Assembly (NCBI GenBank): GCA_026015145.1
Contig: JAOZGY010000070.1
Location: 1 to 33,059 of the forward strand
Direction of reading: 5' to 3'
Length of the DNA: 33,059 bases
DNA from: Candidatus Bathyarchaeota archaeon
GTDB taxonomy: Archaea; Thermoproteota; Bathyarchaeia; Bathyarchaeales; Bathycorpusculaceae
Part shown: piece by piece, positions 10,986 to 12,959 of the stretch
Position numbering within the stretch: the stretch's first letter is position 1
Layout: each line of letters opens with the position of its first letter
The notes under the pieces: generated by a model
The model's input: only the letters and a program-made list of their open reading frames with translations
Databases searched by the model: none
What the model was told of the DNA's origin: nothing
Translations under genes and position numbers: made by a program

Positions 10986-11378
10986 ATGAGCAAACCAGTT
11001 GATGTTGGAAGTTTACGAGTTGGTTGTTACATGCTTATAGACAATCAACCTTGTAGGATTGTTGATATAACTAAATCGAAACCGGGGAAACATGGTGCTG
11101 CCAAAGCAAGAATTGTTGCTATTGGAACGTTTGATGGAGTTAAAAGAAGTATTGTTAAACCCGTTGACGCTAATACAGAGGTCCCATTAGTGGATAAAAG
11201 GCCAGGGCAAGTATTTACCCTTAATCCTAGCGGTGTCCAAATAATGGATCTTGAAACATATGAGTATGTCGATGCTCCTTATCCTGATGATGAATCCATA
11301 AAAGCTAAACTAGAAGTAGGTACCGAGATCGAATATTGGAAAATAATGGGTCGAATAAAAATCGTTAGAGCCAAATAG
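10986..11378 (+). CDS. Translation initiation factor aIF5A
   Basis: SKPGKHGAAKARI hypusination loop; typical length (130 aa). Confidence 0.96.
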   Translation: MSKPVDVGSLRVGCYMLIDNQPCRIVDITKSKPGKHGAAKARIVAIGTFDGVKRSIVKPVDANTEVPLVDKRPGQVFTLNPSGVQIMDLETYEYVDAPYPDDESIKAKLEVGTEIEYWKIMGRIKIVRAK

Positions 11379-11434
11379 TTGCTCTATCTTTTTATTTTTT
11401 AAAACTTTATTTCTATGCTCATGATTTATTAGTA

Positions 11435-11504
11435 ATGAAGCCAATGATGCATGAAGAGCCGTCTGATTTTGTGAAGATATATCTCATGGGGACTGAGGCT
11501 TCAT
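11435..11504 (+). ncRNA. Box C/D guide sRNA
   Basis: Terminal stem ATGAAGCC (11435-11442)/GGCTTCAT (11497-11504); C box ATGATGC (11444-11450), D' CTGA (11463-11466), C' GTGAAGA (11471-11477), D CTGA (11493-11496); 12-nt guide between C and D', 4-nt D'-C' spacer. Confidence 0.82.
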
Positions 11505-11624
11505 AAAACTTCTTAAGAACAAGAAAATATAACTATTGCTCTATCACAAAATTGTTTGCAACCAATATTTTAGGTGCAATATATATTTAAATACGATTTA
11601 GTTGGTAATGGTCGGAGTGCATAG

Positions 11625-12959
11625 ATGGTTTTAGATCGGTTAGGGACTTCTCTTTACGGAGCGTTAAAAAAAGTTTTCAGAGCTTCAGTAGTAGATGAAG
11701 CTACGGTTAAAGAACTTGTTCGAGATATTCAAAGAGCTCTTTTGCAAGCAGATGTGAATGTTAACCTTGTTGTTGACATATCCAAACGGATAGAAGAACG
11801 CGCTCTTAAAGAAAAAGTTCCCCCCGGGATAGCAAGAAGAGAACACGTAATAAAAGTCGTTTATGAAGAATTGACGCGTTTTGTGGGTGATAAACCTGTC
11901 CCAATTAAATTAGATCCTGGAAAACGAAAAATCTTGATGTTGGTTGGGATACAGGGTTCTGGAAAAACCACCGCAGCCTCAAAACTTGCTCGTTATTACC
12001 AAAAAAAAGGTTTGAAACCAGCTTTAATCTGTGCGGATACCTATCGTCCAGGAGCTTTTGCTCAGCTCCAACAATTAGCAAAGCGAATAAATATTCCTGT
12101 ATATGGAGACCTAAAAACTAATGATCCTTTGAAAGTAGTTTTTAAGGGAATCAAACTTTTTGCCGATAAGGATCTTATAATTGTTGACACTGCAGGGAGA
12201 CACAAAGAAGAACAAGAACTAATCAAAGAAATGAAAATTCTTGAAAAAAAAATTAAACCTGATGAAGTTATAATGGTTATCGATGGTACCATTGGTCAGC
12301 AAGCTCTCCTTCAGGCAAAAAAATTCCATGAAACAACTCCTATTGGTGCAATAATAGTTACAAAATTAGATGGTTCAGCAAGGGGAGGAGGAGCTCTATC
12401 TGCAGTAGCAGCAACAGGTGCCCCTATAAAATTTGTTGGTACTGGTGAAAAAATTGGAGATATAGAACCGTTTGTACCATCTAGATTCGTAGGGCGCCTC
12501 TTAGGGATGGGTGATTTAGAAACTCTCCTTGAAAAAGTTCGTGAAGCTGAAATCAAGGTTCCTCAGAAAAAAGCAAAAGCGATTCTAAGCGGTAAATTTA
12601 CCCTTACAGACATGTACGAGCAATTTGAAGCTGTTAAAGGCATGGGTCCATTTAGGAAAATCTTCAAGATGTTACCTGGTATGTCCTACGATGTTCCAGA
12701 AGAAATGTTGAACACTGCTGAAGACAGACTCGAGAAATGGCGAGTAATTATCCAATCGATGCGAGTTGAAGAGAAAGAGAATCCCAAAATTTTGAATTCT
12801 TCAAGAGTAAGGCGTGTGGCAAGAGGTTCTGGTACAACTGAAAAAGAAGTTAAAGACCTTCTAAAACAATATGCGATGATGCGGAAAATGTTAAAGATGT
12901 TCAAACGAAAAAAGAAACTGCCTTTTATGGGCAAGGGATTTCCAGCTGGCTTTAAGTAG
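11625..12959 (+). CDS. ffh: Signal recognition particle protein SRP54
   Basis: GIQGSGKTTAASKLARY, DTAGRHKEE, TKLDGSARGGGALS; Met-rich M domain. Confidence 0.97.
   Translation: MVLDRLGTSLYGALKKVFRASVVDEATVKELVRDIQRALLQADVNVNLVVDISKRIEERALKEKVPPGIARREHVIKVVYEELTRFVGDKPVPIKLDPGKRKILMLVGIQGSGKTTAASKLARYYQKKGLKPALICADTYRPGAFAQLQQLAKRINIPVYGDLKTNDPLKVVFKGIKLFADKDLIIVDTAGRHKEEQELIKEMKILEKKIKPDEVIMVIDGTIGQQALLQAKKFHETTPIGAIIVTKLDGSARGGGALSAVAATGAPIKFVGTGEKIGDIEPFVPSRFVGRLLGMGDLETLLEKVREAEIKVPQKKAKAILSGKFTLTDMYEQFEAVKGMGPFRKIFKMLPGMSYDVPEEMLNTAEDRLEKWRVIIQSMRVEEKENPKILNSSRVRRVARGSGTTEKEVKDLLKQYAMMRKMLKMFKRKKKLPFMGKGFPAGFK

Follow-up and report, generated by a model that had tools for sequence, protein, structure and literature searches.

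Positions 11435 to 11504 of the Bathyarchaeota contig analyzed here hold a real, previously unannotated box C/D sRNA gene. It sits between the genes for aIF5A (10986-11378) and SRP54 (11625-12959) in a stretch of 33,059 nucleotides (the window) from a Bathyarchaeota MAG, whose nearest genome by aIF5A is that of the miscellaneous Crenarchaeota group-6 archaeon AD8-1. We consider it highly likely that this is a free-standing archaeal gene of about 70 nt with its own promoter, whose D' guide would address helix 90 of the 23S rRNA and direct methylation of the equivalent of C2510.

The site reads AUGAAGCC-A-AUGAUGC-AUGAAGAGCCGU-CUGA-UUUU-GUGAAGA-UAUAUCUCAUGGGGA-CUGA-GGCUUCAU (70 bases), exactly as given in a preliminary description of this DNA, which had also placed it between aIF5A and SRP54 and had called an 8-bp terminal stem, a 12-nt guide from box C to D' and a 4-nt D'-C' spacer (UUUU); all of these are borne out by the sequence (Table 1). 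It combines what characterizes an archaeal C/D RNA, namely kink-turn boxes at the terminal stem and an internal D'/C' pair with a short spacer. Box C departs from RUGAUGA in its last base, a departure that is kept across the family, and box C' is one base off consensus. When both strands of the window were scanned for the C-D'-C'-D order with archaeal spacings, 11435-11504 was the sole match, while 300 dinucleotide shuffles gave a chance expectation of 0.003 such sites per window and no shuffled window (0/300) in which the arrangement had a stem reaching 6 bp. The predicted fold of the sRNA has the 8-bp stem closed, at −20.2 kcal/mol (z −2.0).

Table 1. Sequence features of the sRNA gene and its surroundings (positions in the window; n, sequences aligned).
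Feature	Position	Strand	Remarks
Promoter-like BRE/TATA box AAAACTTTATTT of the sRNA gene	11401..11412	+	Motif pile-up upstream of relatives' stems
5' arm of terminal stem (AUGAAGCC)	11435..11442	+	Perfect pairing with 11497-11504
Box C (AUGAUGC)	11444..11450	+	AUGA and box G invariant, n=50
D' guide AUGAAGAGCCGU, 12 nt	11451..11462	+	11453-11461 GAAGAGCCG complementary to 23S CGGCUCUUC; G11458 is the N+5 base
Box D' (CUGA)	11463..11466	+	CUGA or CGGA in nearly all, n=50
Box C' (GUGAAGA)	11471..11477	+	GTGANGA in most, n=50
D guide region UAUAUCUCAUGGGGA, 15 nt	11478..11492	+	AUGGGGA at 11486-11492; weak candidate partner 23S UCCCCAU, E. coli 2473-2479
Box D (CUGA)	11493..11496	+	CUGAG invariant, n=50
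3' arm of terminal stem (GGCUUCAU)	11497..11504	+	Pairing as for 5' arm
TATA-like box TATATATTTAAATACG	11580..11595	+	About 30-45 nt upstream of the SRP54 start codon, 3' of the sRNA; similar in G001 and G002

Among the oriented aIF5A neighborhoods of 110 loci, this C/D RNA was present in 53 distinct versions, all of them 3' of aIF5A and hardly varying in the D' guide, and SRP54 followed the sRNA in at least 37 of the 53, mostly at about 75-320 nt and in the remainder at about 1.4 kb. An alignment of 50 sequences has 26 invariant columns. At the stem positions 96.3% of cells are paired and three pairs differ on both sides; pairing falls to 43-53% when the partner is shifted by one column. A covariance model matched 81 of the order's 151 genomes, as a single copy in almost all of them. 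The earlier call of a box C/D sRNA has held up on these conserved copies, on the covarying stem, on the matches across the order and on the promoter-like box discussed below. Model matches in families f25, f23, f50 and f57 were left out of the counts, being other C/D-like sequences in which the D' guide is absent. One contig of genome G096 carries two identical copies of the sRNA with its upstream flank (L158, L159), which may reflect a duplication or an artefact of assembly.

The 23S gene is absent from the window's own assembly, so the target was examined in genomes of the same genus. In G001 and G002 the 23S reads GAUGUCGGCUCUUCCUAU, which contains CGGCUCUUC, and GAAGAGCCG pairs with it at E. 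coli 2507-2515 through nine Watson-Crick pairs, the first base before D' (U) being unpaired with U2506. Coordinates were raised by 1, as the E. coli 23S copy used (L131) lacks one base relative to standard numbering. Counted from D', the fifth guide base stands opposite C2510, and the predicted mark is Cm2510. The preliminary description had proposed a target at about 2507-2515 of the LSU rRNA, just past the PTC loop, with the C2510 equivalent as the N+5 position; the same-genus 23S sequences contain that target, and the register was confirmed on aligned 23S. C2510 was the top site of the D' guide in the 23S of 10 of 10 genomes, at p values of 0 to 0.05 relative to shuffled guides. These per-genome values are modest, since a 9-bp match is by itself no great rarity in an rRNA of 3 kb. 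Where the 16S was scanned with the same guide, it scored below the 23S.

More distant relatives add to this picture. In f17, another family of the same phylum that we infer to be the Nitrosopumilaceae, the sRNA carries the guide GGAAAAGCC(G/A) and the 23S reads CGGCUUUUCC/CGGCUUUUC, the change at 2512 being answered by a change of the guide from G to A. Of the computational evidence for the target, this guide-target covariation carries the most weight. Families f46 and f49 retain GAAGAGCCG and CGGCUCUUCC, and the register of the guide to box D' is strict in nearly all sequences. Box C, guide, D' and C', searched together as one pattern, were found in 90 of 398 genomes of the phylum, and the reversed control in none.

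The gene would then act as follows. Its own promoter would yield an RNA of about 70 nt, whose C/D and C'/D' kink-turns would be recognized by L7Ae, which in turn would bring in Nop5 and fibrillarin. Over 9 bp, the D' guide would anneal to the 5' strand of helix 90 while the 23S rRNA is nascent, and the C2510-equivalent C, next to the peptidyl-transferase loop, would receive a ribose methyl group from fibrillarin. Nop5 and fibrillarin are encoded by neighboring genes in the window's genome (contig C121 of G000). The sRNA very probably directs the methylation of one nucleotide beside the catalytic center of the ribosome.

The D guide is less uniform. In the window, AUGGGGA can pair with UCCCCAU at 2473-2479, a match with p = 0.49, as shuffled guides do equally well in the 23S. 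The same site ranks first or second in 23S scans of several lineages. Across lineages, GGGG and box D are separated by anything from 0 to about 10 nt, so that an N+5 base would be displaced or fall outside the duplex. In three loci (L046, L060 and L064) the D guide region retains AUGGGG, but moved 8-10 nt from box D, where it cannot place an N+5 base; an anchoring or folding role of the motif in these copies is possible. A different D guide, AAACCCAGCG, is found in L005, L008, L021, L040, L157 and their relatives. It pairs with 2578-2586 and points to G2581, with 0 of 200 shuffles as good, in what we take to be the opposite (3') strand of 23S helix 90, the D' target being the 5' strand. At L166 the D' guide is lost and AAACCCAGCG is kept. 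For a third set of D guides, GAGGAGAG, no 23S target was found, nor was one found in the 23S for UUAUGAGUA, which is common to f17 and f49 (L132-L139, L143, L146). The 23S of one genome (G052, locus L120) has a 35-nt insertion just 3' of GAGCUGGGUUUAG, near E. coli 2588, perhaps a small archaeal intron. The D guide probably makes a second, less constrained rRNA contact that has been swapped between lineages.

The behavior of the D guide bears on a different view of the RNA, in which its guide arms serve chiefly as a folding chaperone of helix 90 and methylation is secondary. Such a role has been proposed for sRNAs whose guides address the two opposite strands of one helix (Dennis et al., 2015; PMC4644070), and the pairing of AAACCCAGCG with the strand opposite the D' target would suit it; the changing distance of AUGGGG from box D is also unexpected for a strict N+5 methylation guide. 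However, the constant register of the D' guide is what single-nucleotide methylation requires, and eukaryotes methylate the equivalent nucleotide (PMC11542601). We therefore regard a mainly chaperoning function as rather unlikely, bearing in mind that the two roles are not mutually exclusive, and keep the methylation guide as the preferred reading.

That reading takes the sRNA to be a gene in its own right, a point on which the flanking sequence is informative. In the 53 oriented upstream regions, RTTTAT clusters at −29 to −33 from the stem, usually as AAAGTTTATTT, with up to 11 sequences sharing one position against at most 4 in shuffles. The exact hexamer occurs within −42 to −22 in 32 of the 53, and most of the others have a variant such as CTTTAT. 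The sRNA and the −30 box are both conserved in G001 and G002, whose 3' flank has diverged. The second TATA-like box (Table 1) suggests that SRP54 has a promoter separate from that of the sRNA. One promoter-like box before the sRNA and another before SRP54 point to an independent sRNA gene and not to an mRNA leader.

The same observations weigh against a cis-acting kink-turn in the 3' end of the aIF5A mRNA or in the SRP54 leader, through which L7Ae would regulate those mRNAs. The idea has some appeal, as L7Ae is described in one report (PMC5539422) as binding kink-turns of archaeal RNAs and may regulate translation, and the site is flanked by two translation genes in many genomes. Nevertheless, SRP54 was not seen adjoining in 16 of the 53 loci and is about 1.4 kb further away in several others, and the relatives in f17, f46 and f49 came from a genome-wide search and not via aIF5A. 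Moreover, a leader needs neither two boxed guides nor a guide that covaries with 23S rRNA. With its own promoter-like box in front of the sRNA and another between it and SRP54, a cis element is very improbable, and an independent guide RNA gene is the reading we retain.

The gene is not universal. The preliminary description had suggested looking for the boxes and stem in the aIF5A-SRP54 gap of relatives, and this check gave a divided answer: they are kept in the 53 distinct sequences 3' of aIF5A but absent in the closest sister, AD8-1 (G003; L002/L031), in which aIF5A and SRP54 are still adjacent across a 224-nt gap with no visible remnant of the sRNA. Weak model matches in G003 and other genomes (E 0.04-0.9) had no C/D layout. 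In G012 (L167) the copy has decayed, and the damage extends to box C, the guide and box D. Missing in the former and decayed in the latter, the sRNA is evidently dispensable and can be lost. Such losses in relatives might suggest a dead relic or a chance arrangement in the window's genome as well, but this is scarcely credible for a copy with all boxes, stem and guide intact that scores 80.4 bits by the covariance model, against 88 for the best of the order, and chance is excluded by the shuffles described above.

Finally, we compared the sRNA with known guide RNAs. At the Rfam gathering threshold there was no match in the window or in seven related loci. It resembles the archaeal sR families of Pyrococcus, Sulfolobus and Pyrobaculum in size, in the C-D'-C'-D order and in its short spacers, and also in having dual guides and rRNA targets near the peptidyl-transferase center (PMC4644070; PMC7994747). 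None of the Rfam sR families reached its gathering score, the best being sR12 with 19.8 of 38 bits. Unlike these families, it has a longer, 8-bp terminal stem, reminiscent of eukaryotic C/D snoRNAs. The top Rfam score, 28.3 bits against a gathering score of 52, was that of snoR77Y (RF01178) and came from the stem and box flanks GAAGCCAAUGAUG...CUGAGGCUUCAU. The guides of snoR77Y differ, and the likeness is likely a convergent kink-turn flank. Membership in snoR77Y or SNORD91 was rejected, since the weak scores arise from that flank. Among archaeal guides, sR50 of Thermoproteus tenax addresses the same neighborhood, at alignment position 2783, which corresponds to about E. coli 2509, the neighboring nucleotide (PMC4644070, Table 3). 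In the collection of papers searched we found no report on box C/D sRNAs of Bathyarchaeota, and a crenarchaeal (Pyrobaculum) guide to C2510 may already be known.

The closest parallel in target is eukaryotic. By N+5, SNORD49 / AtU49 (RF00277 / RF00337, clan CL00062) and plasmodium_snoR28 (RF01604) target the same nucleotide. Arabidopsis Cm2880, human Cm4456 and Ostreococcus Cm2711 share one row of a published comparison, in which no yeast or P. abyssi site is listed, and the row of E. coli Um2552 gives Arabidopsis Um2922 and human Um4498 (PMC11542601, Table 2). As both offsets are 42 nt and there is no gap between archaea and E. coli in this region, the equivalent of Cm2880/Cm4456 is C2510. 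Human 28S Cm4456 is guided by SNORD49A/B (PMC9941101), and the U49-type guide site is among those conserved across eukaryotes according to Hoeppner and Poole (PMC3511168). Directly before D', the Rfam consensus of SNORD49 has GGAAGUGCCGU where the window has GAAGAGCCGU and f46 has GGAAGAGCCGU, a difference of one guide base. Little else of the RNA is alike, and the SNORD49 model gives 12.8 bits in the window and 17.7 in L148 (threshold 37). The resemblance of the guides is likely due to convergence, the simpler reading because an rRNA sequence that is nearly universal determines what the guide must be. Hoeppner and Poole found few archaeal counterparts for ancient eukaryotic guides, and the same caution on homology was reached for sR12 and SNORD43 (PMC3511168). 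Descent of the window sRNA and U49/SNORD49 from one guide present in the last ancestor shared by Thermoproteota and eukaryotes is unlikely, if worth keeping in view. The sRNA can be traced from Bathyarchaeota to lineages that appear to be ammonia-oxidizing archaea, with a target backed by covariation, and its counterpart in cultivable relatives makes the question of ancestry testable. If common descent were true, this would be an orthologous guide RNA traceable across the archaeal-eukaryotic divide, and the sRNA may bear on the age of such guides.
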